From an uncultured Acetobacterium sp. (GTDB taxonomy: Bacteria; Bacillota; Clostridia; Eubacteriales; Eubacteriaceae), in the NCBI RefSeq assembly GCF_963664135.1, contig NZ_OY760905.1, positions 3,560,736 through 3,624,735 of the forward strand: a stretch of DNA of 64,000 nucleotides, read 5' to 3'. How positions within the stretch are numbered: the stretch's first letter is position 1; every line of letters starts with the position of its first letter. The notes under the pieces were generated by a model that saw only the letters and a program-made list of their open reading frames with translations, was not told the DNA's origin and did not search any database. Below, piece by piece: positions 4,927-59,622 of this stretch. The position numbers and the translations under genes are program-made.

Positions 4927-4928
4927 TA

Positions 4929-5147
4929 ATGGCAGTTAAAAAACTTAAAAGTAAGATGAGCCGTTTGGAGACCATCGCCCAATTACTTGAAGAAGATAAT
5001 CAGGAAATTGAAGCCTCGATGAAGTTGTTTGAAGAAGGTATGAAGCTCATTAACGAGTGCAGTACTGATTTGGATACCCTGGAAGGAAAAATAACGATCA
5101 TGATTGATGGGCAGGAACAGGAATTTGAAGGGAGCGTGGACGCATGA
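4929..5147 (+). CDS. xseB: Exodeoxyribonuclease VII small subunit
   Basis: A 72-residue helical-hairpin protein that coats the coiled coil of XseA in exonuclease VII. The family pattern is visible: SRLETIAQLLEE, then IEASMKLFEEGMKLINEC, and a C-terminal LDTLEGKITIM. The gene starts two bases after the xseA stop. Its own stop overlaps the ispA start by four bases (ATGA), so xseA, xseB and ispA are translationally linked. Confidence 0.95.
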   Translation: MAVKKLKSKMSRLETIAQLLEEDNQEIEASMKLFEEGMKLINECSTDLDTLEGKITIMIDGQEQEFEGSVDA

Positions 5148-6040: not shown

Positions 6041-6105
6041 AAAATTACAGAAATCAGAAATTTTATATTATAAATTATAAATGGAACCCATGAAAAGAGG
6101 AAAAA

Positions 6106-6933: not shown

Positions 6934-6940
6934 GATGTGA

Positions 6941-7819
6941 ATGGTTTTGGAAACTGAATTTAAAAATTTTAAAGAAATCGGTATTTATCTTAATATGGAC
7001 AAGCCGGATAGCCCAGCATTAGCAAAAAAATGTATGGATTATTTAATTTGTCATGGTTTTAAAATCGCCTTATTGGAAGGTCAAATAGAATATCTTCATG
7101 AGAGTGTTGTTTACTATCCCAAAAACCTTTTTTACCGAAAACCGGATTGCATTCTGGTGCTGGGCGGTGATGGAACCCTCTTATTTGTGGCCAGAAAGGT
7201 TTGCTTCTATTCGATTCCGATTTTCGGAATCAATCTGGGGAAACTCGGGTTTTTAACCGAAGGCGAAGCCGGTAACTATGAAGAGGCACTGAAAAATTTA
7301 ACTTCCGGCGACTACTACATTGAAGAGCGAATGATGCTGAGCTGCAGCATTAAAAAGGAAAATGAGAGTGCCTGCTTCTATATGGCTTTAAACGATGTGT
7401 TGGTTAAAAGCCGAGGCTTTCGAATGATGGATATTGAGGCCAAAGCTGGCGGGTCGACGATTGATAAATTCCGAGCTGATGGATTGATTATTGCTACGCC
7501 TACCGGCTCAACTGGCTATTCACTGGCCGCCGGCGGCCCGGTAGTATCCCCCCAGGCCAATGTAATGATTCTCAACCCGATTTGTCCTCATCGTCTCCAT
7601 GACCGGTCTTATATACTGCCCGAGAACGAGGTGATTAATCTTGAATTTGGAGACCGTGAAAAGGACATCATGGTGACCTTTGATGGGCAGACAACCGTTT
7701 CGATTACCCCCAATGATGCAGTTAAGGTAAAAAAAGCCACCTATTGTACCCGTCTCATTCGGCTCAATAATATGAGCAGCTATGATCGGTTGAGAATTAA
7801 GCTTTCCAGCGACTATTAA
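6941..7819 (+). CDS. nadK: NAD kinase
   Basis: Phosphorylates NAD to NADP. The 292-residue protein has the diagnostic GGDG at residues 75-78 (LVLGGDGTLL), NLGKLGFLTE, the NAD-binding PTGSTGYSLAAGGP and a C-terminal VTFDGQ. It follows tlyA after seven bases with AGGA just before the ATG. With argR and recN downstream this makes the standard tlyA - nadK - argR - recN block of Bacillota. Confidence 0.97.
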   Translation: MVLETEFKNFKEIGIYLNMDKPDSPALAKKCMDYLICHGFKIALLEGQIEYLHESVVYYPKNLFYRKPDCILVLGGDGTLLFVARKVCFYSIPIFGINLGKLGFLTEGEAGNYEEALKNLTSGDYYIEERMMLSCSIKKENESACFYMALNDVLVKSRGFRMMDIEAKAGGSTIDKFRADGLIIATPTGSTGYSLAAGGPVVSPQANVMILNPICPHRLHDRSYILPENEVINLEFGDREKDIMVTFDGQTTVSITPNDAVKVKKATYCTRLIRLNNMSSYDRLRIKLSSDY

Positions 7820-7850
7820 AAACTGGCTTTATAGAAGGAGGGATGAAAAT

Positions 7851-8300
7851 ATGAAAGTATCGAGACAATTAAAAATTATTGAAATCATTGAAAATAACCT
7901 TATCGAAACCCAGGAAGAACTTGCCCAGGCATTAAAAGACTCGGGTTTTCCGGTAACTCAGGCAACGATATCCCGGGACATTAAAGAGTTAAAGCTGATT
8001 AAGGTAAGCAGTCATGATGGGATTCAGCATTATGCACCGTTAAAGGACATTGGCACTATCTATAATGAGCGGGTTACCGCGGTTTTTAAAGAATCGGTGT
8101 TAACCATTGATTATGTTGAAAATACCATTGTGCTAAGAACCCTTCCGGCCATGGCTCAGGCCGCCGCTCTGGCCATTGACTCCATGGACTGGTGCGAAAT
8201 TGTCGGGACCATCGCTGGGGATGATACGATCTTTGTGCTCGTCCGTAACCGTGATATGGTGGGTGAAATTGTGGGAAAATTCAAAAAGTTGATGAAATAG
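7851..8300 (+). CDS. argR: Arginine repressor ArgR/AhrC
   Basis: Arginine-responsive hexameric regulator of arginine synthesis and breakdown. Residues 1-70 are the winged helix (ETQEELAQALKDSGF, then QATISRDIKELKL). The C-terminal oligomerisation and arginine-binding part contains GTIAGDDTIFVLVR. Length 149 is normal. A strong ribosome binding site GGAGGG lies ten bases upstream. Its likely targets in this window are argGH and argCJBD at 18-25 kb, whose shared promoter region holds ARG-box-like sites (20617-20634 and 20689-20706). Confidence 0.96.
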   Translation: MKVSRQLKIIEIIENNLIETQEELAQALKDSGFPVTQATISRDIKELKLIKVSSHDGIQHYAPLKDIGTIYNERVTAVFKESVLTIDYVENTIVLRTLPAMAQAAALAIDSMDWCEIVGTIAGDDTIFVLVRNRDMVGEIVGKFKKLMK

Positions 8301-8310
8301 GGAGGGCTCT

Positions 8311-10050
8311 ATGCTGAGAAATCTCGTTGTAAATGATTATGCACTGATCGACCATCTGTCGGTGGATTTTAGTCCGAGACTTAATGTGATCACCGGCGAA
8401 ACCGGGGCTGGTAAATCGATTGTGATTGATGCGCTGACGCTGGTGCTGGGAAATCGCGGTAACAAAACCAACATCCGTCAGGGAAAAAGTAAGATGACCG
8501 TTCAGGGGCTTTTTGACATCAGTGAACAAACAAGTCTGATTGAAAAATGTTCAGAATACGGCATCCCCATGGAAGATGGCCAATTAATTCTGATTCGGGA
8601 GATGGATGATCGGGGTCGCAATATTTGCCGGGCCAACGGCTTGATTATCACCGTCGCCCAATTAAAAACAATTGGTGATGCGCTCATTGATATTCACGGT
8701 CAGCATGAGCATCAATCCCTGTTTAAACGGGAAAACCATCGGCACTTGCTGGATGCCTTTGGTGGAGAGAAAAGCCGTAAATACCGGCAACAGACAGCCG
8801 CTGATGCCGATGAAATCAAACGCATCAAAGATCAGATCAATGAATTGGAAACAAATGAACGGGAATTGGAACGGGAAAAAGAAACCCTACAGTTTGAAAT
8901 CAATGAGATTGAAGCAGCCGCCCTGATTGTTGGTGAAGATGAAGAATTGGAAGAAGAAAAGCGAATTCTTGAGAATAAGGAGCGACTTTTTTCCAATACC
9001 AGTCGTGCTTACGAGCTGCTCCGAGGGGAAAATTCTGATCAGAACCCAATTCTTGATGCTATGAGTTTGCTGGCCGAAAACATTGCTGAAATTGCCAAAA
9101 TAGACAGCAGTTTTCAGGAAAAACTGGAAAGGTTCAATGGAATTTTCAATGAAGCTGAAAGCCTTTCTTTTGAGATCCGCTCTTATTTAGAAGATATGGA
9201 ATATAGTTTGGGTGATTTGGATGAAATCGAGACCCGGCTCAGCGTGATTGCCAAACTTAAACGAAAATATGGCCATGATATTACTGAAATCCTGACCTAT
9301 GCAGAAGAAATCGAGATCCGCTTTAAAAGCCTGTTAAACCGAGATGAAAGCCTGCAGTCTTACTATCAGGAATTAGGCGGCGTTCAAGATAAGTATTATA
9401 AGGTTAGTGAATCACTTTATCAGTTGCGCTTAAAAACCGCCAGTACTTTAAAGATTGCCCTTGAAAAAGAACTGGGCGAACTGGCGATGGAGAAAGTTCA
9501 GGTGGAGATTTCGGTGGAACATGATCCCGAGCGGATTGCCGCCTATGGCCAGGACATGGTAGAATTTTTAATTTCGGTTAATCCGGGACAGCCTCCAAAA
9601 CCGCTGGGTAAGGTTGCCTCTGGCGGGGAAATTTCCCGCATTATGCTGAGTCTTAAAAGTATTTTCGGTGCCCTGGATGCCATTGAAACCATGGTGTTTG
9701 ACGAAATCGATACGGGCATCAGTGGCCGTACTGCCCAGGTTGTTGCCGAAAAAATACAAGCTTTAAGTGTCACCCCGCCTACCGGTCGGCAGATTATCTG
9801 TATTACCCATTTACCCCAGATTGCTGCCATGGCCGACCAGCACTTTATGGTCGAAAAACGGGCGACCGAGGATACTGTGGAGGTTCGTTTTATACCCCTG
9901 GACGAAAAGGGTAAAAAAGAGGAACTTTCCCGAATGCTCGGCGGTGCCGAAGTAACCCAAAAAACTTGGGAGCATGCCCAGGAAATGCTGGAACTAAGCC
10001 AAAAAATAAAAAAATCAAAAAAAATCAAAAAAGACAAAATATTGTCTTAA
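8311..10050 (+). CDS. recN: DNA repair protein RecN
   Basis: SMC-like ATPase recruited early to double-strand breaks. The 579 residues contain Walker A GETGAGKS (29-36), two coiled-coil arms around a central hinge (about 150-370), and a C-terminal ABC signature region LGKVASGGEISRIMLSL. Walker B FDEIDTGISG follows, then the H-loop ITHLPQIAAMAD. The gene starts ten bases after argR with the ribosome binding site GGAGGG. The C-terminus is a Lys-rich tail. No obvious terminator follows before pduL. Confidence 0.97.
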   Translation: MLRNLVVNDYALIDHLSVDFSPRLNVITGETGAGKSIVIDALTLVLGNRGNKTNIRQGKSKMTVQGLFDISEQTSLIEKCSEYGIPMEDGQLILIREMDDRGRNICRANGLIITVAQLKTIGDALIDIHGQHEHQSLFKRENHRHLLDAFGGEKSRKYRQQTAADADEIKRIKDQINELETNERELEREKETLQFEINEIEAAALIVGEDEELEEEKRILENKERLFSNTSRAYELLRGENSDQNPILDAMSLLAENIAEIAKIDSSFQEKLERFNGIFNEAESLSFEIRSYLEDMEYSLGDLDEIETRLSVIAKLKRKYGHDITEILTYAEEIEIRFKSLLNRDESLQSYYQELGGVQDKYYKVSESLYQLRLKTASTLKIALEKELGELAMEKVQVEISVEHDPERIAAYGQDMVEFLISVNPGQPPKPLGKVASGGEISRIMLSLKSIFGALDAIETMVFDEIDTGISGRTAQVVAEKIQALSVTPPTGRQIICITHLPQIAAMADQHFMVEKRATEDTVEVRFIPLDEKGKKEELSRMLGGAEVTQKTWEHAQEMLELSQKIKKSKKIKKDKILS

Positions 10051-10114
10051 CATTTCATCAGTTATTGGATAAAATAAAGATTGTTAAAAATATATTTAAT
10101 TAAGGAGATATAAA

Positions 10115-10684
10115 TTGGAAAGAACAGTACCCATCGGGTTATCAAACAAGCACATTCATGTATCACAGGCAGATTTAGAAACATTATTCGGTAAAGGCTA
10201 CCAATTAACACCAATGAAAGATTTATCACAACCAGGACAATACGCCGCAGAAGAAAAAATTGATGTGGTTGGACCTAAGGGAACATTAAAAGGGATTCGT
10301 ATTCTTGGACCAGTTCGTCCTGAAACCCAATTGGAAGTATCTGTCGGAGATGGTTTCTGTTTAGGAATCAAAGCACCACTTCGTAATTCAGGAGATATTG
10401 CCGACACCCCAGGGGTTAAACTAATCGGACCTGCAGGCGAAGTAGAAATTGCTAAAGGTGCCATCGTGGCTGCCCGTCATATCCATATGAGCACTGAAGA
10501 AGGCGCAGCCTATGGATTAAAAGACAAAGATGTTGTCTGTGTAAAATTGGATGGTCCTCGTGGTCTGACATTTGACAACGTATTAGTTCGCGTTCACCCA
10601 GATTTCAAACTAGACATGCATCTTGACGTTGAAGAAGGAAATGCAGCCGCTGCTAAAAACGGGCAAATCGCAACCATTCTTTAA
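10115..10684 (+). CDS. pduL: PduL-type phosphotransacylase (phosphate acyltransferase)
   Basis: Interconverts acyl-CoA and acyl phosphate (acetyl or propanoyl) with release of CoA; in acetogens this feeds acetate kinase and ATP formation. The 189-residue protein has both family halves: NKHIHVS at 11-17, ARHIHMS at 120-126 and MHLDVEEGNAA at 168-178, which supply the zinc-binding His residues. It starts directly at the first barrel with no N-terminal extension, so no microcompartment targeting peptide is seen and a cytosolic role is likely. The start is TTG, with GGAGAT eight bases upstream. Substrate preference cannot be read from the sequence. Confidence 0.93.
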   Translation: MERTVPIGLSNKHIHVSQADLETLFGKGYQLTPMKDLSQPGQYAAEEKIDVVGPKGTLKGIRILGPVRPETQLEVSVGDGFCLGIKAPLRNSGDIADTPGVKLIGPAGEVEIAKGAIVAARHIHMSTEEGAAYGLKDKDVVCVKLDGPRGLTFDNVLVRVHPDFKLDMHLDVEEGNAAAAKNGQIATIL

Positions 10685-10686
10685 TT

Positions 10687-11472
10687 ATGATTGCACCAAA
10701 CCCAATCGCTTTTGCCGCATTTGGCCTTGAAGTCAGGTGGTATGGGGTTTTAATTGCCTCCGCATTACTGATTGGTCTGTTCATAGCGATAAAACGGGCA
10801 CCCAAATATGGGCTTGATCCTGAGATCATTATGGATTTCTTTCTGTTCATGACACCAGCGGTGATCATTGGTGCCCGGCTCTACTATGTCATCTTTAGTT
10901 ATGACTATTATGTCGCCCATCCGGAAGAAATTATCGCAACCTGGCATGGCGGACTGGCTATTCACGGTGGTATTATTGCCGGTATGATCGTGGCCATTAT
11001 TTTGTGTCGGGTCAAAAAGATCAGTTTTTTCGCTTTAGCGGATGTCCTGATTCCCGGTTTACCGTTAGGCCAGGCCATTGGGCGCTGGGGGAATTTCTTT
11101 AATCAGGAAGCCTATGGTTCACAAACCGATTTACCTTGGGCCATCACAGTAAATGACGCTGCCCTGGGAATCATCAAGGTGCATCCGACCTTCCTTTATG
11201 AGTCGGTTTGGAACGTGATGATTTTTGGTTTTCTCTTTTTTTATGAAGATAAAATTAAAAAGGTCGACGGCGAATTACTCTTTGTTTACCTGGGTTTATA
11301 TTCTGTCGGACGCTTTTTCATCGAAGGGCTAAGAACGGATAGCCTGATGTTTATGGGACTGCGAACAGCCCAACTGATCAGTCTGGCATTGGTCATTATT
11401 GGAATTGGCGGACTTTGGTATTTGCGGAAAAACGAAGATCGATTTACGAATTCACTGATAAAAAATAAATAA
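10687..11472 (+). CDS. lgt: Prolipoprotein diacylglyceryl transferase
   Basis: Transfers diacylglycerol from phosphatidylglycerol to the lipobox cysteine of prelipoproteins in the membrane. The 261 residues form about seven membrane helices and contain the Lgt signature GRWGNFFNQEAYG (132-144) and HGGLAIHGGI around 87-96. It starts two bases after pduL, so both share a transcript. A strong bidirectional terminator follows. Clients in this window include the amino acid binding lipoprotein at 37868 and the GH8-like lipoprotein at 58474. Confidence 0.97.
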   Translation: MIAPNPIAFAAFGLEVRWYGVLIASALLIGLFIAIKRAPKYGLDPEIIMDFFLFMTPAVIIGARLYYVIFSYDYYVAHPEEIIATWHGGLAIHGGIIAGMIVAIILCRVKKISFFALADVLIPGLPLGQAIGRWGNFFNQEAYGSQTDLPWAITVNDAALGIIKVHPTFLYESVWNVMIFGFLFFYEDKIKKVDGELLFVYLGLYSVGRFFIEGLRTDSLMFMGLRTAQLISLALVIIGIGGLWYLRKNEDRFTNSLIKNK

Positions 11473-46329: not shown

Positions 46330-47337
46330 ATGAAAATACTCGTCTGCGGAGGCGCAGGATATATTGGATCACACGTGGTCAGAGCCCTAGCGGAGCTTCA
46401 ATACGATGTGGTTGTAGTGGATAATTTCTCAACCGGACATCGGGGAGCAGTGCCAGAAAATGTGCCAGTTATTGAAGGCGATATCCGGGATCAGGTTTTA
46501 TTAAAAAGGGTTTTTGAAGAACACACCATTGGCTGCGTCATGCATTTTTGTGCCAATTCGCTGGTTGGCGAATCGATGGAACAGCCAATTAAATACTACC
46601 ATAATAATGTCTATGGTACCTTATGTCTGCTGGAAACCATGGTTGAATATAATATTAAGAAGTTTGTTTTTTCATCCTCAGCAGCTGTTTATGGCGAGCC
46701 GGAAGAGCTGCTGATCACTGAAGAAACTGAAAAAAGTCCAACGAATACCTATGGGGAAACAAAACTGACCGTGGAAAAAATGCTGAAATGGATGGATGTA
46801 GCCTATGGTCTAAAATCCATGGTATTCCGTTATTTCAATGCCGCCGGAGCCCATCCGACCGGAGAAATTGGCGAAGATCATGATCCGGAAACCCACTTGA
46901 TTCCACTTATTTTACAGACAGCCCTGGGACTCAGAGAAAAGATCAGCATTTTTGGAGAAGACTACAATACCCCAGACGGCAGCTGTGTCCGGGATTATAT
47001 CCATGTGCTGGATATTGCCGCGGCTCACATTTTGGGCATGGAAAAACTAATGTCCGGTGGTGGTAGTAATATTTATAATCTTGGTGATGGTCAGGGTTTT
47101 TCAGTAAAGGAAGTTATTAAAAAAACGAAAGAACTCACTGGCAGAGAATTTAAAGTGGCGATGGCCGAGCGTCGTCCCGGAGATCCGGCAACGCTGATTG
47201 CCTCATCAGAAAAAGCCAAACAAGAATTGGGCTGGTCGCCCGAACATTCTGATTTAGACAATATCATAAAAACAGCCTGGAAATGGCATTTAAACCATCC
47301 CCAGGGCTATGAAGTATTAAAAAACATAGAAGAATAA
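46330..47337 (+). CDS. galE: UDP-glucose 4-epimerase
   Basis: Interconverts UDP-glucose and UDP-galactose, possibly also the N-acetyl forms. The 335-residue extended short-chain dehydrogenase shows the NAD motif GGAGYIGSH (7-15), the catalytic SSSAAVYG (115-122) and Tyr141/Lys145 in YGETK. The SCVRDYIHVLDIA segment is also present. It is a single gene but may supply sugar nucleotides for the polysaccharide locus that begins 2.4 kb downstream. Confidence 0.96.
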   Translation: MKILVCGGAGYIGSHVVRALAELQYDVVVVDNFSTGHRGAVPENVPVIEGDIRDQVLLKRVFEEHTIGCVMHFCANSLVGESMEQPIKYYHNNVYGTLCLLETMVEYNIKKFVFSSSAAVYGEPEELLITEETEKSPTNTYGETKLTVEKMLKWMDVAYGLKSMVFRYFNAAGAHPTGEIGEDHDPETHLIPLILQTALGLREKISIFGEDYNTPDGSCVRDYIHVLDIAAAHILGMEKLMSGGGSNIYNLGDGQGFSVKEVIKKTKELTGREFKVAMAERRPGDPATLIASSEKAKQELGWSPEHSDLDNIIKTAWKWHLNHPQGYEVLKNIEE

Positions 47338-49560: not shown

Positions 49561-49682
49561 TGGCGTTTTCCCGAAACAACTGTGAATATATGAAAGGAAA
49601 TAGCGGTTCTCCGGTAACTAAATGATTTTAAAGAGGTGTATTGGGTAAAACACTATGATATACTATACAGAATTTAATAAAC

Positions 49683-49708
49683 AAAAGCTCCTGGCTGATG
49701 GAGCTTTT
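49683..49708 (+). promoter_or_regulatory. Hairpin in the leader of the polysaccharide operon
   Basis: AAAAGCTCC, loop TGGCTGAT, GGAGCTTTT: a perfect 9-bp stem ending in TTTTAT, 22 bases before the first start codon. A possible promoter TTGGGT-17-TATACA is at 49641-49669. It could be an attenuator; it also excludes the in-frame ATG at 49655 as the start. Confidence 0.6.
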
Positions 49709-49729
49709 ATAAAACAGGGGGAAGGGGTC

Positions 49730-51337
49730 ATGGATAAAGACATCAACGGCAGAAATAATGACAATAATGTAATCGATTCAAGGAAAATCCCTGCGGATTC
49801 AAAAAAGATGCATGAAAAAATCGGTATCTGGATTTTTACCTACCTCCTAAGACCTTCGGTGTTGGGTATTCTTGTTTTATTTGGACTGCTCTGCTTTGTT
49901 TTATATCTTAATCCGGTTATTGGAATGGGCGATGATGGTAGCACCGCTGGGGTTATTGCTGGAAGTGATTTATACGATCTGGGTGAATTGAGTCCCCAGG
50001 AATCGATGGAGTATTTTCAAAATAACTGGGGGATCAGGCAGTATTATAATGATGCTCCCAATATCCAGATCACATCGCAGACGCCCTTTCTCCTCACCGG
50101 AAAGAGACTGGACATGGCCTTTACTTGGGACTGGCTGTTTGATATGCGGTTTTACGCCGCTGTAATTACAGTATTTTATCTTCTGGCTATGTATTTATTA
50201 TTTGAAACAGTAACCTATGGCAAACGTTCAAAATGGACCTATGCAGTTGTCGCTTTGGGGGTTGTTATTTTTGGGGATACAGCCTATACAGCCTGGATCA
50301 ATTCCTTTTATACCCAGGCCCTTAGCTTTTTTTTGATCATCATTCTGGGAACCTCCCTCATTTTAATGGGACAGGAAAAACTCAGTGATTTTCTGCTGGT
50401 CAGCTTGTATTTTTTAAGCAGCCTGCTTTTTTGTTTGCTCAATCAGCAATATGCTTTTCTGGGTGTTTGTCTGGGGATTTTGGGATTCAACCTGAAATAT
50501 ATAAATCCCCGAAAGCGATACAAAGATCTTTGTCGGATTTGTGGCAGTTTGCTGATTGTGGTGTCACTGGTGGGCTGGATTTTTATGCCCAATGGTTTGA
50601 CAAACCTCAGTAAATATCACAGTATGACCCGCGGTGTTTTGATGACTGCTGAGAATCCGGAAACAGCTCTGGAATATTTTGGAATCAATCCTCAATATGC
50701 AGTCTTAACTGGAAGTTCTTACTATGAGGCGATTTCTCCAGCAACCATGAATAGTTCTGAAATGCAAAATAATTTTTTCAAGAAATTTAATCCGGTGAGT
50801 GTTGCCGTTTATTATGCGGGCAATCCCAATCAATTATATAGCATGCTCAATCAAGCCGTTGACAGCAGTTTTAATATCCGGCCTTCCTGGCTCGGTAATT
50901 ATGAAATCGCCCAGGGCTATCCGCCGGGAACACAAACCAAATTTTTTACGATCTGGAGTACCTTCAAGTCGGAGATAATGCCTGGAAATTTTGGATTTGT
51001 GACCATCTGGATGGGTATGATTATCGTCGTCTATGTGCGAAATTTCCGAACCGGTATTATTGAAAAAAATGAACGAAACACACTGCGGTTTATCGGACTG
51101 ATGACCTGGCTCTTTATCGGTCTCTGGCAATTATATTTTTCAATCATCACTTCTGGAGACATGGATTCTCTGGGACGACTATTTATTTTCTCCCTTACCT
51201 TTGATCTGGTTTCATTTGTCGTTTTAGGAAAACTGATTCACTGGTTTGAAAAAAAATTGCGAAAAGTGGATTGGGAAGCTCAGAAGAAGATCTTCTTTAA
51301 TAAAGGCAATCAGGATGATCAGGGAGGCTACCGATGA
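49730..51337 (+). CDS. Polytopic GT-C-like membrane protein of the polysaccharide operon
   Basis: A 535-residue membrane protein with about ten helices. A first helix (PSVLGILVLFGLLCFVLYL) is followed by an external loop with the acidic GMGDDGS, the place where GT-C glycosyltransferases carry their catalytic acid. A second large external domain lies in the middle (SKYHSMTRGVLM through the ISPATMN region). It resembles membrane hexosyltransferases such as WsfD by general layout only. It overlaps the next gene by four bases. The ATG at 49730 follows GAAGGGG. Possible role: adding a lipid-linked sugar to, or exporting, the polysaccharide. Confidence 0.65.
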   Translation: MDKDINGRNNDNNVIDSRKIPADSKKMHEKIGIWIFTYLLRPSVLGILVLFGLLCFVLYLNPVIGMGDDGSTAGVIAGSDLYDLGELSPQESMEYFQNNWGIRQYYNDAPNIQITSQTPFLLTGKRLDMAFTWDWLFDMRFYAAVITVFYLLAMYLLFETVTYGKRSKWTYAVVALGVVIFGDTAYTAWINSFYTQALSFFLIIILGTSLILMGQEKLSDFLLVSLYFLSSLLFCLLNQQYAFLGVCLGILGFNLKYINPRKRYKDLCRICGSLLIVVSLVGWIFMPNGLTNLSKYHSMTRGVLMTAENPETALEYFGINPQYAVLTGSSYYEAISPATMNSSEMQNNFFKKFNPVSVAVYYAGNPNQLYSMLNQAVDSSFNIRPSWLGNYEIAQGYPPGTQTKFFTIWSTFKSEIMPGNFGFVTIWMGMIIVVYVRNFRTGIIEKNERNTLRFIGLMTWLFIGLWQLYFSIITSGDMDSLGRLFIFSLTFDLVSFVVLGKLIHWFEKKLRKVDWEAQKKIFFNKGNQDDQGGYR

Positions 51338-52968
51338 TGAAACGAAAAAAGTTGATCTTTTTGGTGCTGGTTTTCATTCTGGTGCCAATGACTGGGCTAA
51401 ATGACCAGGAAAATATGATTCAAGTAAATGCGGCGCAAAATGAGATAACCGGGAATAATATGATGGAACCAAAGGAGGTACTGGTCATCTTTGATAACTT
51501 GGGCATTGGTACCACCAACAGCAATAATCTTAATTCGTTGGAAACCCTACTTTCAGACCTAACCCAGACAGCAGAAATAACAATGATTGATGATTATCAG
51601 GCGGGGCGGATGATGGATTATCAAAAAGTGATTATCTTAAAAAATTCCGAGAATGCCATCGACAATGAATCCTTCCGATTGGATTGTCAGAAATTTTCCG
51701 GGGAAATAGTATATATCGGTTTTATCTCAACCGGATTGCTGCCCGGACTGGAGGGGCTTTCAATAGAATGCCAGATGGGGCGAACGGTGTCTTTAAACAA
51801 AGGCGAGATGACCATCAACAGCATCTGGGTGGAGGATTTACGGGTAATTAACCAGTTACCCAGTATTGGAGAAGCAACCATTGTGGCGGGCGAAAAGCGG
51901 TATCCCTTTTCGGTAAAGCTTAATAACATAACCGTTGTCCCCACCTATATTGGCAATCAAAGTTTTCAACTTTGTCTCGGGGATCTTCTTAAAAATTGGC
52001 TCACACCCAGTGCTGCTGTCAGCATGCTCGTGCTGGTTCCGGGAATTTATCCCTTTTCAGACTTGAATCAGGTGGTTGCCATGAGTGATGCTTTTTATGC
52101 CAGTGGGATTCCCTTTGCTTTAGGTGTGGTGCTCATTGATGACAATATGGATTATCCGGCAATGGCACGGTTTTACCAGGTGCTACGTTATGTTCAATCG
52201 CGAAATGGTACCATTCTCATTCATCGTCCCAGCCCGGAAACCGTCTCTGACAGTGATACGGATTTGGCCGAGAAAATGTATGCCGTGATGAATAAAATGG
52301 TGGAAAATAGAATTTACCCATTGGGTTTGGTAACTGGAGAAGATCTTTTTTTTGATGATTTCAATTCACTTACCCCGCTCAATGCATTCTCATCAGGCAT
52401 TATTATATCGGATCCAGTTCAAGCTACGCAAATCATCCCCGCTGGAAATGAAACCTGGGCGCTCAATCGAGCCAGTCTGGGGATTGATCTGGAAACGGTG
52501 GTGAATACTCAAAGTCAACCCCGGAATTTTAGAAATTATCCCATCAGCACCGCCATTGTTTTATCTTTGCCGAAAGATGAGGCGGCTTTAACTGACCAGG
52601 TTGAAGTGATCAACAATAAATGGCTGTCGTTAACCGATTATAAAAATCTGGAGAATTACTGGAGCATCGGACAGAATACCATTCAAAGCGGATCAGGGGA
52701 AATTCGTCTCAATGGGATGCCGGTTTCATTGGCTTATAATGAAGAACCGGTGGATGATCAGTACGCCTACCAGAAACCACCGGAATATAATCTGGCAAAG
52801 TTGTTTACGGCAGGGAATGTGTTTCTGTTAACCGTCGTTGGGATCATTATTATCGTTTTTATCATTATTGTTATATTCAGCCGGCGAATTTATTTAAATA
52901 AGTTTCGCAGAATTGTTGATCAGGATGAGCACAAAAAGCCCGTAAGCGAGGAGGACAAACCGCAATGA
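51334..52968 (+). CDS. DUF2334 (YdaL-like) membrane-anchored protein
   Basis: A 544-residue protein with an N-terminal signal sequence (KKLIFLVLVFILVPMTG), a long extracytoplasmic part and a C-terminal membrane helix (VFLLTVVGIIIIVFIIIVIF). A basic and acidic tail follows. The middle is a DUF2334 domain, related to polysaccharide deacetylases (VLVPGIYPF, YASGIPFALGVVLIDD, GTILIHRPSPE). A similar protein, YdaL, occurs in the Bacillus subtilis ydaJKLMN operon. It could deacetylate or trim the polymer outside the membrane. Four-base overlaps link it to both neighbours. Confidence 0.82.
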   Translation: MMKRKKLIFLVLVFILVPMTGLNDQENMIQVNAAQNEITGNNMMEPKEVLVIFDNLGIGTTNSNNLNSLETLLSDLTQTAEITMIDDYQAGRMMDYQKVIILKNSENAIDNESFRLDCQKFSGEIVYIGFISTGLLPGLEGLSIECQMGRTVSLNKGEMTINSIWVEDLRVINQLPSIGEATIVAGEKRYPFSVKLNNITVVPTYIGNQSFQLCLGDLLKNWLTPSAAVSMLVLVPGIYPFSDLNQVVAMSDAFYASGIPFALGVVLIDDNMDYPAMARFYQVLRYVQSRNGTILIHRPSPETVSDSDTDLAEKMYAVMNKMVENRIYPLGLVTGEDLFFDDFNSLTPLNAFSSGIIISDPVQATQIIPAGNETWALNRASLGIDLETVVNTQSQPRNFRNYPISTAIVLSLPKDEAALTDQVEVINNKWLSLTDYKNLENYWSIGQNTIQSGSGEIRLNGMPVSLAYNEEPVDDQYAYQKPPEYNLAKLFTAGNVFLLTVVGIIIIVFIIIVIFSRRIYLNKFRRIVDQDEHKKPVSEEDKPQ

Positions 52969-54221
52969 ATGTATTCGACTATTTAATGGTGATCAACATC
53001 ATTCTGATCTGGAGCCTGCTGTTTGTGAATATTGTCCTGATTGTTGGGGGCTATATTTATTACATCAAGGTTGAAAATGAGTCACCGCCGCAGGTTGTGG
53101 GAGAACATCCCTTTGTTTCCATTATGGTACCAGCCCATAATGAAGGGATCGTTATTGTGAAAACCGTGGAAGCCTTGCTGAATTTTGATTATCCCGAAGA
53201 CCGTTACGAAATCATCGTCATCAATGATAATTCCACTGACAACAGTGCCGAGTTGTTAAAAAAAATTCAGGATGAAAATCCAACCAGGAAGTTGATTGTC
53301 ATCAATACCAATAAGATTACCGGAGGAAAGGGAAAATCCAATGCCCTTAATATCGGCTACCAGCAGAGCAGCGGCGAATTCATCGCTATCTACGATGCCG
53401 ACAATACCCCGGAACGAAAGGCCCTTTCGTATCTGGCAGCGGAACTGAAAGCTGATGATTCCCTGGGGGCAGTGATTGGAAAATTCCGAACCCGAAATAA
53501 GGAGGTTAATCTGCTGACTCGGTTTATTAATATTGAAACCTTGTCCTTTCAGTGGATGGCTCAGGCGGGCCGCTGGCAGTTGATGAAGCTGTGTACTATC
53601 CCGGGGACCAATTTTATTCTCCGCCGAACCATCATCGAGGCCATCGGTGGGTGGGACGAAAAAGCCGTGGCTGAAGATACCGAGATCAGTTTTCGGATTT
53701 ATTTAATGGGTTATAAGATCAAATTTCAACCCAAGGCGGTCACTTGGGAGCAGGAGCCGCAAACGCTGGCGGTTTGGTTCCGACAGCGAACCCGTTGGGT
53801 AAAAGGAAATGTTTATGTGCTCATCAAAAATATCGGTTATCTGGTGGACCCTAAAGCAAAAAAAATTCGTTTCGATATTTTTTATTTTTTATCAACCTAC
53901 TTCCTATTATTAACGGCACTGGTGGTATCGGATATCATTTTCGTCATGAATATGGCGGGACTGGTATCCACCTCCATCCAGGGATTCAGTAATCTACTCT
54001 GGTTTACCGCTTTTATCATGTTTGTCTTAGGGGTATTTATTTCTCTGACCACCGAAAAAGGGGAAATGTCAGTTTCGAATTTCTTTGTCATTGCCCTGAT
54101 GTATTTTACCTATTGTCAGTTATGGATCATCGTAACTGTCTATGGCGTATTTCAATATTTTAAAGACCGCATTAAAAAACAGGATAGCAAATGGTATAAA
54201 ACCGAACGCTTCCAGGGCTAG
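52965..54221 (+). CDS. Processive family 2 glycosyltransferase (YdaM/PgaC-like synthase)
   Basis: A 418-residue polymer synthase of the cellulose/poly-GlcNAc synthase group. One N-terminal membrane helix is followed by a cytosolic GT-A domain. It carries the first Asp motif INDNST (87-91), DAD (144-146), the catalytic AEDTE (237-241) and QRTRW (274-278), which marks processive enzymes. Three or four membrane helices form the export channel. There is no C-terminal PilZ domain, so c-di-GMP control must come from another protein, probably the degenerate GGDEF protein at 56356. Confidence 0.92.
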   Translation: MNVFDYLMVINIILIWSLLFVNIVLIVGGYIYYIKVENESPPQVVGEHPFVSIMVPAHNEGIVIVKTVEALLNFDYPEDRYEIIVINDNSTDNSAELLKKIQDENPTRKLIVINTNKITGGKGKSNALNIGYQQSSGEFIAIYDADNTPERKALSYLAAELKADDSLGAVIGKFRTRNKEVNLLTRFINIETLSFQWMAQAGRWQLMKLCTIPGTNFILRRTIIEAIGGWDEKAVAEDTEISFRIYLMGYKIKFQPKAVTWEQEPQTLAVWFRQRTRWVKGNVYVLIKNIGYLVDPKAKKIRFDIFYFLSTYFLLLTALVVSDIIFVMNMAGLVSTSIQGFSNLLWFTAFIMFVLGVFISLTTEKGEMSVSNFFVIALMYFTYCQLWIIVTVYGVFQYFKDRIKKQDSKWYKTERFQG

Positions 54222-54244
54222 AACGACAGACAAAGGAGGAGAAA

Positions 54245-56359
54245 ATGAAAAAGAGATTAACCATGACGCTGATCCTGATGGCAAGTCTGCTGGTGATGTT
54301 GATTCAGCCGGTGGCTGCGGCCAATTATGGTGGGGAAGCGCAAACCGATTTGCGAACAGCCCCCCAGACTTTTACGACCAACTTTACAGATTATGCCATG
54401 AAGGGGCTGTTTTCAACGGTGGAACAAACTTTTTGGGTGGCAAAAGACTGGAATGTCCAAAGTGTGTTGCTTCATCTGGAATACCGGGCGACGCCTTTGG
54501 CGGACACCCAATTATCCAGTCTGACGGTGGCTATTAATGATTCCTATTTTTATTCCTTCCGCCCGGCGGACAACACCAGCGGTCGCCACGGCATTGATAT
54601 TTATGTGCCCTTGGAGTTTTTGAATGCCGGCTACAATAATATCCGAATTGACGGTTACATGCGAACCCAGGACGCTCTGCCCTGTGTAGATGATGTCAGT
54701 GAGGCAAATTGGCTAGATATCTTCAAGGAATCAGCCATCTTTGTTCAATATGACAAGAATGCCTTTACCACAAGTATTGAATCCTTTTATAATCGTTTTT
54801 TTGAGGTCGATTCATTACGATATGGTGAATCGGTGTTTGTTGTTTCAGATACCAATAATACCGGGGAACTCAATGCGGCCCTTTGGGGTGTCTCTGGTTT
54901 ATCCAATCAAACCATCTATGCCGACGGTTATTTTCCCATTTTGACCAGCAGTGATCCCGCCGCCAATCAGGCCAAAAACAGAATTGTGATATCAAAGTAC
55001 GACCAGCTGACTGCCAATTATCGTAGTGTGGTTGATCAGATTGGGCTTAATGATGAAGATGCGCTGCTGGTGCTTGTCAATGAAGGCACCGGAACAAATA
55101 CGCTTGTCATAAGTGCAAAAAATGATGTCGCCTTAATCAATGCGGGTGAGATGCTGGGGAATCCCTCGTTAATGAACCAGCTCAAAGCAAACATAAAAGT
55201 GTTGGGAAAAAACGAAGATGTCAAAACTCCGGTAGTTGAACCGGAAACGTACATCAATTTTGCTGGCAACGAGGGTACGTATTTTAAGGGTGCCTTTCGG
55301 CAGGTCAAAGAATTTACCATCAATTATCCGGCCAACCGTAGTCTTTCTGACGCCAGCGAGTTTTATCTGAATTATCGGTATTCTGAAAACCTCGATTTTG
55401 ACCGGTCATTGATGACGGTTTATATCAATGATATTCCGGTAGGTAGCCGAAAGCTTTTCTTGGAAAAGGCCGGCGGCGATGAAGCGACCATTGCCATCCC
55501 CACCGACATTGACATTGGCGGTGCCTTTCAGGTAAAGATTGCCTTTGATCTTGAAATCAAAGATCTCTGGTGCAGCTTGCGACAGGGCGATATGCCCTGG
55601 GCCTATCTTACCCAGGAGACGATGCTCAAAATAAATTCGGTGGCCAGTGATGATTTGATTTTTGAAAATTATCCGTCACCGTTTGTATCGGATTACAATT
55701 TTAATGCGGTGACCATGGTGGTGCCCGATCAATTGGATAAAGACACCAGCAATACGTTGGCCAAAATGTTCCGGGTATTAGGGCGCTATACAAAAGGCAA
55801 TAACGGCGAATTGACGGTGATCCATCCGGATGGGATGAATGAAACCGCCGTGTCTTCCAATATTATTGCCCTGGGTACCGATCAGAATAACAGTTTTATT
55901 AAAAACAGTAACGATAAGCTGTATTTCAAATTCAATGCCGAGGGCACAACCTTTGAAACCAATGAGAAACTCATCATTGACCCAGTTTATGGTGAAACGC
56001 TGGGGTCAGTTCAGCTGCTGAACTCGCTTTACAGCAAACCGGGTCGGGCCGCCTTGATGGTCACAGCCCCTCAAAATATTGGTTTGACAGCCATTGGCAA
56101 TAATCTCGGTGAGCTGAAAAATCTTGGCAGATTGACCGGTGACGCCGCCCTGGCAGACACCAACGGAAAGGTGATGACCTATCGATTCAAAGCCATTCAA
56201 AACCCCACCGTTGCGGTGGTTAAACAAGTTGCCTTGCGACAGGATGCCCAGATTTTTATTCTGGTCAGCGTTATGTTCCTGATTCTGCTGGCAGTGGGCG
56301 TCGCCTTTGTTATTCGTAAGAATGGCATTCAACTGAAGAAGGGAGGCTGGCGGAAATGA
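54245..56359 (+). CDS. BcsB-like (YdaN) extracytoplasmic polysaccharide synthesis protein
   Basis: A 704-residue protein with a signal peptide (ILMASLLVMLIQPVAAA), a large extracellular BcsB-type region of alternating carbohydrate-binding and ferredoxin-like parts, and a C-terminal membrane anchor (QIFILVSVMFLILLAVGVAFVI). Family marks are LHLEYRATPLADTQLSSLTV, the NNIRIDGYMRTQDALPCVDD segment and a repeated module after 370 (LNYRYSENLDFDRSLMTVYI). In cellulose systems BcsB binds the emerging chain and completes the membrane channel with the synthase. The next gene starts four bases inside its end. Confidence 0.9.
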   Translation: MKKRLTMTLILMASLLVMLIQPVAAANYGGEAQTDLRTAPQTFTTNFTDYAMKGLFSTVEQTFWVAKDWNVQSVLLHLEYRATPLADTQLSSLTVAINDSYFYSFRPADNTSGRHGIDIYVPLEFLNAGYNNIRIDGYMRTQDALPCVDDVSEANWLDIFKESAIFVQYDKNAFTTSIESFYNRFFEVDSLRYGESVFVVSDTNNTGELNAALWGVSGLSNQTIYADGYFPILTSSDPAANQAKNRIVISKYDQLTANYRSVVDQIGLNDEDALLVLVNEGTGTNTLVISAKNDVALINAGEMLGNPSLMNQLKANIKVLGKNEDVKTPVVEPETYINFAGNEGTYFKGAFRQVKEFTINYPANRSLSDASEFYLNYRYSENLDFDRSLMTVYINDIPVGSRKLFLEKAGGDEATIAIPTDIDIGGAFQVKIAFDLEIKDLWCSLRQGDMPWAYLTQETMLKINSVASDDLIFENYPSPFVSDYNFNAVTMVVPDQLDKDTSNTLAKMFRVLGRYTKGNNGELTVIHPDGMNETAVSSNIIALGTDQNNSFIKNSNDKLYFKFNAEGTTFETNEKLIIDPVYGETLGSVQLLNSLYSKPGRAALMVTAPQNIGLTAIGNNLGELKNLGRLTGDAALADTNGKVMTYRFKAIQNPTVAVVKQVALRQDAQIFILVSVMFLILLAVGVAFVIRKNGIQLKKGGWRK

Positions 56360-57219
56360 AAAATAGAGATCAGGTTTTGTCAGATCTTGGCATCGTCTTC
56401 TTTTTGGTGTTGTCCTTTGTTACCATTGTTTTTACCGCCTCGGATTCGGCTAATTATATTTTGAATCTGGTGATGCTCAATGTCACCTTTGTGGTAATCA
56501 TTATTACCTATTTCAGCAATATTACCCTGGGCCTGGTGACCAATGGAATTGTGATTTTTGCTTATATTTCCTACACGATTTTTCTGACCCTGGGTTATGG
56601 GGAACCGATCGAGGCAAAAAACTATTTTTGGATTGTGGCATTGCCCCTGTATACCTACGTTGTTACCTTAATGACTGGCGGAAATCTGGCGCTTCAGCGA
56701 CGGGTGAGAGAGTTGGAAGATGAAAATGTCAGCCTCTCCACCGTTGACCCGGAAACCGGATTACGAAACCTGCGTACCTTGATTGCTGATGCGAAAATTT
56801 TTATTGGCATGTCCAAAAGAGGGCAGATTGAGTTATCGCTGATGATGATTAAATTCAGACATTATAAGGAGATCAAGCGAATTCTGGGGGAAGAACGACT
56901 GCCGCTGTTTATCCGACAGATGACCGAAGTTATGCATCGCAGCCTCAGAGTTGAGGATACCCTGTATCTGATTGAAAAAGATGACATTACCTTTGGATTG
57001 TTTTTAATCACCGACACAGCCGGTACAAAAATTGTCGAGCAGCGAATCAGAGATTCTATGAAACATGAAGATTTTTATACGATCACGGCGCCCTATGAAG
57101 TGGATATCGACCTGAAAATCGGTGTTTTTCATTATGAAGATAGTGGAAAAGGAGAAATTGTATCACCGTTGGAATTTATTGAAAGAGCCCGAAAAGAAAT
57201 GGAATACGATGTGGGGTAA
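56356..57219 (+). CDS. Degenerate GGDEF membrane protein with intact c-di-GMP I-site (YdaK/PssE-like)
   Basis: A 287-residue protein with about four N-terminal membrane helices (12-110), a short coiled coil (RRVRELEDENVSL) and a GGDEF-type domain starting with DPETGLRNLRTL (131-142). The catalytic GGDEF is replaced by EKDDI (207-211), so it should not make c-di-GMP. Exactly five residues before it lies RVED (198-201), the RxxD inhibitory site that binds c-di-GMP. This matches the role of YdaK in Bacillus and PelD-like receptors: binding c-di-GMP and activating the synthase. It is coupled to the BcsB-like gene by a four-base overlap. Confidence 0.85.
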   Translation: MKNRDQVLSDLGIVFFLVLSFVTIVFTASDSANYILNLVMLNVTFVVIIITYFSNITLGLVTNGIVIFAYISYTIFLTLGYGEPIEAKNYFWIVALPLYTYVVTLMTGGNLALQRRVRELEDENVSLSTVDPETGLRNLRTLIADAKIFIGMSKRGQIELSLMMIKFRHYKEIKRILGEERLPLFIRQMTEVMHRSLRVEDTLYLIEKDDITFGLFLITDTAGTKIVEQRIRDSMKHEDFYTITAPYEVDIDLKIGVFHYEDSGKGEIVSPLEFIERARKEMEYDVG

Positions 57220-57261
57220 GCCACATCGGATGAGGTTGTTAATACGAGAAAGCGAGTGACG

Positions 57262-58392
57262 ATGAAAAAAAATAAAATCATGATTCTTTTTGGTACCCGG
57301 CCGGAGGCGATTAAAATGGCACCACTGGTGATTGCTTTGAAAAAAGATCTCCGCTTTGAGACCATGGTAACTCTGACCGCTCAGCACCGGGAAATGCTGG
57401 ATCAGGTGCTGGAACAGTTTGCCATTGCGGCGGACTATGATCTCAATTTAATGAAGCCGGGTCAAACCCTGGCCTATCTAACAGCAAGCATTCTGGAAGA
57501 GCTGAAACCAATTCTGGAACAAGAGCAGCCGCAGATGATTCTGGTTCACGGCGACACCACCACCGCTTTTGCTTCAGCCCTTTCGGCTTTTTATCAGCAG
57601 ATTGCTATTAGCCACGTGGAGGCGGGACTGCGAACTAAAAATAAATATTCCCCCTACCCGGAGGAAATGAACCGTACCCTGATCGGACAATTGGGGGATC
57701 TGCATTTTGCGCCAACCATCGGGAATCAAGCCAATCTTTTAAAAGAAGATATTTCGCCAGAAAAAATTGTGATTACCGGTAATACGGTTATCGATGCGCT
57801 ACTAATGACGGTGAAAGTAGATTATCATTTTGCTAACCCAGTGCTTAATGCTATTGACTATCAAAACCACCGGGTGATTCTGTTAACCTGCCATCGCCGT
57901 GAAAATCTGGGGCAACCGATGGAACAGATTTTTTCAGCCATACAGGAATTGGTGCTGGCCAATCCGGATATTGAGGTCGTGTTTCCGATGCATCCCAACC
58001 CAGCCATTTCCGAAAAAGCCTTGCCGTTGCTTAAAGATCTTGATCAGGTGCATATTTTATCTCCACTGGATTATGGTGAAATATCCAATCTGATGGGACG
58101 CGTCTATCTGGTCCTTACCGATTCAGGGGGGATTCAGGAAGAAGCCCCAGCTTTAGGAAAGCCGGTGGTGGTACTGCGCCAGGAAACCGAGCGGCCAGAG
58201 GCCGTCGCCGCCGGGACGGTGATCATGGGTGGCGTAGAAAAGCATAACATTCTCAAAGTCACCCAAAATCTTCTGGATGATCCCGCTGCCTACCAGGCTA
58301 TGGCTCATGCCGTCAACCCTTATGGTGATGGCAAAGCATCGCAGCGGATTTGTGAAGCCCTGGCAGATTATTTTACAGTTGAAAATCAATAG
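57262..58392 (+). CDS. wecB: UDP-N-acetylglucosamine 2-epimerase (non-hydrolysing)
   Basis: Interconverts UDP-GlcNAc and UDP-ManNAc. The 376-residue GT-B-fold enzyme shows the start FGTRPEAIKMAPLV, HGDTTTAFASALSAFY, SHVEAGLRT and the C-terminal TDSGGIQEEAPALGKPVVVL. It is the last gene of the polysaccharide operon, 42 bases after the GGDEF-like gene. Its presence suggests that ManNAc, or a derivative, is part of the polymer or of a lipid-linked starter; this is inference. The start is ATG 57262 or GTG 57256. Confidence 0.95.
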   Translation: MKKNKIMILFGTRPEAIKMAPLVIALKKDLRFETMVTLTAQHREMLDQVLEQFAIAADYDLNLMKPGQTLAYLTASILEELKPILEQEQPQMILVHGDTTTAFASALSAFYQQIAISHVEAGLRTKNKYSPYPEEMNRTLIGQLGDLHFAPTIGNQANLLKEDISPEKIVITGNTVIDALLMTVKVDYHFANPVLNAIDYQNHRVILLTCHRRENLGQPMEQIFSAIQELVLANPDIEVVFPMHPNPAISEKALPLLKDLDQVHILSPLDYGEISNLMGRVYLVLTDSGGIQEEAPALGKPVVVLRQETERPEAVAAGTVIMGGVEKHNILKVTQNLLDDPAAYQAMAHAVNPYGDGKASQRICEALADYFTVENQ

Positions 58393-58397
58393 TCTCT

Positions 58398-58452
58398 AAA
58401 AAAGCTGTCCCCCTAATTCATTGTATTGTTGAATTAGGGGGACAGCTTTTTT
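58398..58452. terminator. Strong bidirectional terminator between wecB and the GH8-like gene
   Basis: Arms 58398-58420 and 58430-58452 are perfectly complementary over 23 bases, with a 9-base loop, starting with six A and ending with six T. It separates the two convergent halves of the polysaccharide region. Confidence 0.95.
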
Positions 58453-58473
58453 GATATCACCGAGGCGGTCTAA

Positions 58474-59622
58474 TTAGTGATTATAAACCAGACCCAAAAG
58501 AGCCTGCAGGTTATCATAGGAATAGGCATTGCCGTTGTAAGCAAAGCCACCATAAAAGGTACTCTGCTTATCTGTGTTCTGATGACTTTTCAGTTGGGTT
58601 AAAGCGTTGCCGGTTAAAAAATCATTTCCCAGGGCCGCTCCGATCTGGGCGGTGAGACCATATGCCGCCGAGGATTCCTGTTTGTCCAGGGCTTCCCCAG
58701 TGCTGGAATCATAGTAAGAATAGAGGGTGCCGCTGACAACTTTTTCTTCCAGCCAGTCCAGTGACTTTGGTGAATAAATCCCCAGCTGGGCCATATTCAG
58801 CATCACCATCAGGCTGTCGAGAATATTGATTTTCCCGTCGGCATCTTCATAAATACCTTTTTGGGGGTTGTAAGTCTTGTGGTATAACGGAAGGGTTTCA
58901 CTGATAAAGCTGCCTAACAGCAGTTTTTTATTTACTTTCAGGGCATCTGTTATTTGAGGTTCGGCCTGGACCAGTGTGCTAATAGCACTGAGGTTGAGAT
59001 AGGCCATTTCCACACTGTTGTCCTGGGTGGGACTGGTGGCGCCGTAATAGCTGACCAGGTAATTGGCATGAAAGCCCCGGGAGGGTAACTGGCTTTCAAG
59101 GGCTTCAAACAATTTTTTGCCCGAATCGTTGAGGGGCCACAGCTTTTGGGCCTGCGCCAGGGTCTCATAGATCCGCAGATCATCAATGGTGGCCGAAACA
59201 TCGGTAATCGGCGCCTCTCCTTCAACAATCCGCCACAGCAGAATATCACTAACCAATAGATTTTTTTCGATATAGTCGGCAGTTTGATTAAATAACTGCT
59301 GATCCCTGGTAAGCCAGGCATATTCTAATTGCAAGCCCATGGATTCCGAAAGAATTTCATGACCGGTTGATAAGTCGGTGGTTTGAGTATTGTTTTGATA
59401 ATTGGTGTAAATACCACCCAGTGGCGAGCTTAATTCATTCTGAACAAACGAAAAACACAGCCCCGCTTCATTTGATAGCGGGGTTGCCACCGCTAAGGTA
59501 TGCGAATCACTGGTGGTGTAACTGGCCAGCTCGGAATTATCTTCCGGTTGGTTTACGCAACATCCCCCCAGAGACAACACGATCAGGACGAAAAGAAAGG
59601 AGACACTAATTTTTTTTGCCAT
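58474..59622 (-). CDS. GH8-like (YdaJ-type) lipoprotein
   Basis: A 382-residue lipoprotein with lipobox LSLGGC (Cys21). The rest looks like a six-hairpin (alpha/alpha) glycosidase fold of family GH8, as in YdaJ of the Bacillus ydaJKLMN operon (ILSESMGLQLEYAWLTRDQQ, LLWRIVEGEAPITDVSATID, VEMAYLNLSAIS). It would cut or edit the polymer outside the cell. Unlike in Bacillus it lies on the opposite strand, overlapping the ThrE-like gene by 17 bases and so coupled to that unit. Catalytic residues were not verified. Confidence 0.72.
   Translation of the reverse strand: MAKKISVSFLFVLIVLSLGGCCVNQPEDNSELASYTTSDSHTLAVATPLSNEAGLCFSFVQNELSSPLGGIYTNYQNNTQTTDLSTGHEILSESMGLQLEYAWLTRDQQLFNQTADYIEKNLLVSDILLWRIVEGEAPITDVSATIDDLRIYETLAQAQKLWPLNDSGKKLFEALESQLPSRGFHANYLVSYYGATSPTQDNSVEMAYLNLSAISTLVQAEPQITDALKVNKKLLLGSFISETLPLYHKTYNPQKGIYEDADGKINILDSLMVMLNMAQLGIYSPKSLDWLEEKVVSGTLYSYYDSSTGEALDKQESSAAYGLTAQIGAALGNDFLTGNALTQLKSHQNTDKQSTFYGGFAYNGNAYSYDNLQALLGLVYNH

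Follow-up and report, generated by a model that had tools for sequence, protein, structure and literature searches.

The Listeria pssABCDE operon and the Bacillus subtilis ydaJKLMN operon are the described systems closest to a gene cluster at positions 49655–59622 of a 64,000 nucleotide stretch of DNA from an uncultured Acetobacterium sp. (NCBI RefSeq assembly GCF_963664135.1, contig NZ_OY760905.1, positions 3,560,736 to 3,624,735 of the forward strand). This whole stretch is termed the window. In Listeria, PssC is the glycosyltransferase, PssE is an I-site cyclic di-GMP (c-di-GMP) receptor required for exopolysaccharide synthesis, and the glycosidase gene sits with dgcA-dgcB-pdeC (PMC4125290). 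The Listeria Pss polymer is beta-1,4-N-acetylmannosamine (ManNAc) with alpha-1,6-galactose (PMC11439720, PMC5039582). The B. subtilis operon is described as having a hydrolase, a GGDEF receptor and three more synthesis/export genes, in the order J-K-L-M-N (PMC13274460, PMC5422440), and mutation of either I-site residue of YdaK abolished polymer production (PMC5422440). An earlier note, made from the sequence alone, had read the Acetobacterium cluster as a ydaJKLMN-like exopolysaccharide machine. The cluster does appear to be a c-di-GMP-type, synthase-dependent system of the yda kind, but of the described systems Listeria pssABCDE, and not B. subtilis ydaJKLMN, comes closest. We regard it as a known type of machine found in a new host and would group it with Listeria Pss instead of Yda, and we put the probability that it is a Pss-type, c-di-GMP-gated exopolysaccharide synthase at about 0.78.

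A L. monocytogenes record (L047, positions 3763–10924; L and G are our handles for contig loci and genomes) contains five open reading frames in the same order as window positions 49655–57219, i.e. first gene, DUF2334-like gene, GT2 gene, BcsB-like gene and GGDEF-like gene (A to E). The record is unannotated in this region and we take the run to be the pssA–E of PMC4125290, on the basis of homology and order. Percent identities between the window and L047 proteins A to E are 29, 22, 66, 35 and 37, with the value for B taken over 496 positions and that for the GT2 over 416. Thus the two systems share the five genes and their order, a first gene that matches the same family model, a closely similar GT2 and an I-site receptor of the PssE type, whereas the A, B, D and E proteins are only 22%–37% identical. 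The matching Listeria and Enterococcus sequences came from plasmid records, which were searched by tblastn with the BcsB-like protein as query; five records matched (three Listeria, one Enterococcus and one cyanobacterial). The Listeria “plasmid” records (NZ_CP030101.1, NZ_CP095725.1 and NZ_LR134402.1) are 0.48–2.9 Mb in size and look chromosomal; the pss cluster is present in both of those inspected.

The window genome (G000) is 4.08 Mb in a single contig, and its cluster proteins are 93%–99% identical to those of L013, a metagenome-assembled genome named Acetobacterium woodii. All seven open reading frames of 49655–59622 have the coordinates and strands given in the earlier note, including the glycosidase on the opposite strand, and all seven frames are open. 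The six plus strand genes either overlap by four bases or are separated by gaps of 23 and 36 bases, and the hydrolase gene faces them.

The order A-B-C-D-E is kept in 7/7 loci in which all of A to E is present (L013–L016, L018–L020), and the partial loci L017 and L021 show it in the portion present. The tenth locus of that search, from the distant Lacrimispora (L022), has the order A-E-B-C-D. Enterococcus faecalis (L036:6409-14916) displays an entire Z-A-B-C-D-E cluster in one record. Pss-type clusters are also found in several Bacillota lineages other than Listeria, anaerobes included. Because Listeria and Enterococcus clusters have the first gene and the order is that of pssABCDE, the first gene is not the addition that the earlier note had proposed, and the gene order is not new either. 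The earlier note had staked its machine on a BcsB match in the 54245 protein and on an operon order shared with relatives; both are found (PF03170, E = 1e-43; 7/7 complete loci), and the proposal therefore stands in this respect. Placement within ydaJKLMN itself was considered and rejected. The Yda set, as described, has the order J-K-L-M-N and no WsfD gene, and the WsfD model finds no match in 14 control genomes, B. subtilis included; the window operon is headed by a WsfD gene and differs in order.

Several of these records have irregular frames or additional sequences. The BcsB-like frame of E. faecalis L036 is split in that record, and the first-gene match of Listeria innocua (L035:5758-7216) is split over more than one segment, i.e. 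the gene may be interrupted in that strain. The E. faecalis BcsB-like row and the L. innocua proteins were omitted from the cluster-protein alignments, from which L020 is also absent. Lacrimispora has an extra 649 amino acid (aa) protein between the BcsB-like and hydrolase genes (L022:11087-14670; PMT_2, 22.1 bits, cut-off 26.1), and its hydrolase displays a long N-terminal extension that is thioredoxin-like by eye.

The pssE-like (ydaK-like) gene (56356..57219, plus strand) encodes a predicted 287 aa membrane protein with a GGDEF domain (PF00990, E = 3.9e-10). The motif is degenerate, as previously noted, and reads EKDDI. An RxxD I-site, RVED, is located five residues before the motif; the Listeria PssE counterpart has the I-site RTSD and the motif DKDDA. 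The I-site is kept in six of seven PssE-like proteins, that of the window included. In the E. faecalis L036 protein, RxxD is missing from the I-site position. There are 69 GGDEF matches in the window genome, of which 67 are over the cut-off, the 56356 protein among them. For a genome of 4.08 Mb this represents a large c-di-GMP network.

The pssC-like (ydaM-like) gene (52965..54221, plus strand) is predicted to encode a 418 aa GT2 polymerase (PF13641, E = 4.8e-30) with a QRTRW motif. The percent identity is 66–69 to the Listeria, E. faecalis, G062 and G259 counterparts and 57–59 to two more. The pssD-like (ydaN-like) gene (54245..56359, plus strand) encodes a predicted 704 aa BcsB-type export subunit, and the PF03170 match encompasses positions 49–568. 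One Acetobacterium genome has a further BcsB-like match, which is distant (G004:C137:24480-26273; 25% identity). The GT2, BcsB-like, GGDEF and WecB domains of the earlier note are thus all recovered as profile matches, but DUF2334 is not. The pssB-like (ydaL-like) gene (51334..52968, plus strand) encodes a 544 aa protein with a hydrophobic segment near both termini, and its DUF2334 (PF10096) match lies below the Pfam cut-off of 26 bits. Among five relatives, L022 (42.2 bits) and L040 (28.9) pass, Listeria (22.1) fails, and E. faecalis and L037 show no match. An AlphaFold model of this protein from 11 rows has a mean predicted local distance difference test (pLDDT) score of 45.1, and a PDB profile search with a wider alignment gave nothing up to E = 1. 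Two C-terminal tails, WxKTER[FY] in the GT2 and YDV in the GGDEF protein, recur in 7/7 aligned proteins each, window included; as a matter of speculation, these tails may mark a contact.

The wecB gene (57256..58392, plus strand) encodes a non-hydrolysing UDP-N-acetylglucosamine (UDP-GlcNAc) 2-epimerase (TIGR00236, 499.7 bits, cut-off 210). It is the single WecB match in the window genome (E <= 0.001). The genus genomes and the contig loci probably share species, and counts for the two are kept separate. A BcsB-like gene is present in 10 of 18 Acetobacterium genomes, and the same 10 carry the WsfD gene. A WecB orthologue (79%–100% identity) is found in 10/10 of these cluster-positive genomes and in 0/8 of the cluster-negative ones; four of the negatives have only 21%–26% identical relatives and two have none (the other two are taken up below). 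Genomes less than 90% complete are the positives G002, G004 and G015 and the negative G006. Since WecB is present as a single copy and its orthologue follows the cluster in this way, the best reading is that the Acetobacterium Pss-type polymer contains ManNAc. The earlier note had taken WecB as a hint of ManNAc, and the composition of the Listeria polymer agrees with this.

The position of wecB as last gene of the operon, claimed in the same note, holds for the window and L013, where wecB shares the strand of the operon and starts 36 bases past the GGDEF gene. In the other seven of nine Acetobacterium-type loci with both genes (L014–L016, L018–L021), wecB is on the opposite strand, behind the hydrolase gene. 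The hydrolase–wecB spacing in these loci is 26–46 bases in five, 211 in L015 and 311 in L019. Among the genus genomes, wecB is on the same strand in two (G000, G005), opposite in seven and on a separate contig in one. The Lacrimispora L022 cluster has wecB after its hydrolase-like gene. Six of the seven opposite-strand loci (not L020) have a terminator-like hairpin separating the GGDEF gene from wecB. In the window a strong hairpin of this kind lies in the wecB/hydrolase gap (58397..58453) and has a 24-pair stem, a 9-base loop, a 5′ A run and a 3′ T run; its energy is −41.7 kcal/mol (z −8.43, 0/200 shuffles as stable). The L013 hairpin in the same gap has −42.4 kcal/mol; shuffle statistics refer to the window hairpin only. 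The simplest reading of these arrangements is an inversion in the A. woodii lineage that made the precursor gene wecB part of the synthase operon.

The pssA-like first gene (49655..51337, plus strand) encodes a predicted 560 aa multi-helix hexose transferase of the WsfD family, a candidate branching transferase. It scores 404.9 bits on the NCBIfam WsfD model NF051875, “glycan biosynthesis hexose transferase” (cut-off 80), and matches no Pfam family above its cut-off. Listeria PssA scores 564.4 bits on this model, and the E. faecalis, Lacrimispora, G232 and G062 counterparts score 411–599 bits. The earlier description of a ten-helix protein with a GDDG motif is borne out, i.e. ten hydrophobic segments are found (Kyte-Doolittle, 19 residues, >=1.6) and GMGDDG is at residues 90–95, after the first segment. 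GT-C transferases have 8–13 helices and, in an external loop, a DxD-like motif; their partners are a lipid-sugar synthase and a flippase, in many cases GtrA (PMC8035078). An AlphaFold model from 10 rows (mean pLDDT 42.7) is too low in confidence to assess a GT-C fold, and a PDB profile search with a wider alignment found no relative up to E = 1.

The family bears the name of WsfD of Paenibacillus alvei, and the likeness to the first gene is through the family model and the literature. WsfD is proposed to transfer glucose from a lipid carrier to ManNAc of the surface layer (S-layer) glycan in an alpha-1,6 linkage (PMC2943079). The Listeria polymer also carries an alpha-1,6 hexose on ManNAc, which parallels the proposed WsfD linkage. 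The settings differ in that the P. alvei gene serves a glucose branch of an S-layer glycan, whereas the Acetobacterium gene heads a c-di-GMP-type synthase operon. No function of PssA is stated in the accessible parts of the Listeria Pss literature searched. Yda-bearing B. subtilis spores are bound by a lectin that recognises alpha-Gal or alpha-GalNAc (PMC13274460), despite the lack of a WsfD match in the control genomes.

In a phylum sample, WsfD matches above the cut-off occur in 8 of 398 genomes, at 10 places. Nine of these are beyond the window genome, and eight were examined in wider stretches (the second G259 place was omitted). The WsfD gene is inside a pss-type cluster in three of the eight stretches (L037, L038 and L040), and a GtrA-family gene is within ~1.2 kb of it in four (L039, L040, L041 and L042).

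The facing gene (58474..59622, minus strand) is convergent with the operon and encodes a 382 aa hydrolase with a lipobox-like LGGC. The GH8 assignment of the earlier note is not upheld. For the lipoprotein, no Pfam family matches up to E = 1, GH8 included, and its relatives in L036 and L037 score 20.5 and 21.7 bits on Pfam GH8, against a cut-off of 24. Its PDB relatives are 3ren (E = 7.5e-38, 133.7 bits) and 6r2m (E = 5.7e-12, 48.5 bits), which are CPF_2247 and PssZ, both of GH126; the original authors had named PssZ GH8 (PMC7479077). By sequence, the facing lipoprotein is a GH126 relative. The invariant residues of this family are Glu84, Asp136, Arg139, Tyr194 and Tyr307 in CPF_2247 numbering (PMC7479077). 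The window equivalents are E93, D147, R150, Y208 and Y321, so that 5/5 key residues are present, and they are invariant in a 10-row alignment (10 of 14 genes; L013, L015, L019 and L021 left out). The residues were mapped by hand count on the 3ren alignment, with a constant offset of 21.

Scores against 3ren and 6r2m are 165.1 and 52.8 bits for the G062 hydrolase (L037) and 139.7 and 33.4 bits for that of E. faecalis (L036), compared with the 133.7 and 48.5 bits of the window protein. As a lead from these three score comparisons, the substrates of the CPF_2247 branch of GH126 may include Pss-like polymers. CPF_2247 has been considered a probable amylase (PMC7479077) and its specificity has been called rather unclear (PMC13363691).

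In the mechanism proposed here, the gene set, order, homology, key residues and genomic co-occurrence are read directly from the genomes, and the enzymatic steps, sugars and c-di-GMP control are transferred from work on Listeria, Bacillus and Paenibacillus. WecB would convert UDP-GlcNAc to UDP-ManNAc. The GT2 would polymerise ManNAc on the cytoplasmic side, most likely into beta-1,4-ManNAc, and thread the chain through its own membrane channel, and the BcsB-like protein would take up the chain outside. Binding of c-di-GMP at the I-site of the degenerate GGDEF protein would activate the GT2. The WsfD-type protein would act at the outer face and use a lipid-linked donor to decorate ManNAc with a hexose branch, which is galactose in Listeria. 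The DUF2334-like protein would be an accessory, and the GH126-like lipoprotein would cleave or trim the polymer.

Several points weigh against this reading. The hydrolase scores nearer to CPF_2247 than to the Pss hydrolase PssZ, which counts against a PssZ-type label. The pssB-like protein has only 18.1 bits on DUF2334 and 22% identity to Listeria PssB. Acetobacterium has wecB and the GH126 gene adjoining the operon, but no wecB or hydrolase match is found in the Listeria stretches examined (L035 and L047; 17.9 and 22.0 kb). Two of the eight cluster-negative genomes have a 51% identical WecB relative. No donor synthase linked to the cluster was seen in Acetobacterium. The one GtrA-domain protein of the window genome, a GtrB-GtrA fusion (G000:C1:2671683) considered as feeder of the first gene, does not follow the cluster, with at least 60% identical matches in 5/10 positive and 5/8 negative genus genomes, and this role is not supported. 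A galE-like epimerase gene upstream of the cluster (46330..47337, plus strand) could supply UDP-Gal, but a galE-like match is present in 18/18 genus genomes, the eight cluster-negative ones included, at 69%–100% identity in 17 (43% in G009). A cluster-specific galE is therefore not supported, although the gene is on the same contig, within ~6 kb of the WsfD gene, in 9/10 positives (not G009). Only high-identity rows were counted as orthologues in the GtrA and galE distributions.

Some of these points would also fit a Yda-like system whose product is a different polymer, unbranched or GlcNAc-based, with WecB serving another glycan (e.g. a wall polymer) as a chance neighbour. The distance of the hydrolase from PssZ and the Listeria stretches without wecB are of this kind, as are the opposite orientation of wecB in 7/9 Acetobacterium-type loci and the resemblance of the GT2 to poly-N-acetylglucosamine (PNAG) synthases. 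The resemblance is limited, however. The GT2 score on TIGR03937 is 197 bits, below the cut-off of 422.3, and a PNAG synthase is rejected. Within the best 30 of 120 records, the GT2 is 66.3%–67.4% identical to four Listeria/Enterococcus plasmid-record matches, the next being 39%, and four matches annotated pgaC are only 25%–26% identical; PssC is thus a far closer relative of it than the annotated PNAG synthases are. A WecB that is the only one in its genome, that tracks the cluster and that adjoins a hydrolase-like gene in Lacrimispora also argues against a chance neighbour. A different polymer is unlikely on this evidence.

A variant cellulose synthase, in which the BcsB-type subunit and GT2 would produce a beta-1,4-glucan, is very improbable. 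The cluster resembles Bcs in having these two components, the BcsB match is strong, and the GT2 has distant similarity to cellulose synthase structures (E = 2e-16). However, the window has an I-site receptor protein instead of PilZ, with no PilZ family among the GT2 Pfam matches up to E = 1. The GT2 scores 87.5 bits on TIGR03030, far below the CelA cut-off of 699.1, and its nearest relatives found are PssC-like. That the cluster is silent or decaying in the window lineage has the smallest chance of all, since the greater divergence of the first two genes (54%–70% identity to loci outside the A. woodii lineage, against 88%–91% for the GT2) is offset by the open frames and the kept gene order.

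Other features were searched for around the Pss-type cluster. No Rfam family matches window positions 40000–64000 up to E = 0.5, thus no known c-di-GMP riboswitch class is present there. A promoter-pattern scan gave 27 sites, compared with a shuffle mean of 20.5 (sd 4.9), and was not used. Among the titles and abstract openings listed in searches of the open-licence literature, none mentions the Acetobacterium cluster, and a search for GH126 together with Acetobacterium found no paper.

What is new here is the host, the wecB linkage and the testable roles for PssA and GH126. These may be joined into one tentative reading, which we hold at somewhat short of even odds. The WsfD-type protein, and by extension PssA, would be the extracytoplasmic alpha-1,6 hexose brancher of a poly-ManNAc chain leaving a c-di-GMP-gated synthase, with a dedicated WecB moved into the operon in the A. 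woodii lineage, and the CPF_2247 branch of GH126 would have such a ManNAc polymer as its natural substrate. Pss-type synthesis is linked to wecB, PssA is offered a testable role, and this branch of GH126, whose specificity is rather unclear (PMC13363691), is offered a testable substrate. For the acetogen genus, the cluster predicts a specific surface polymer and points to one of the many GGDEF proteins of the genome as a candidate c-di-GMP receptor. An acetate-making anaerobe thus carries the gene set that Listeria uses for a sticky sugar coat when c-di-GMP rises, and the wecB gene beside it would provide the likely main sugar building block of the coat.

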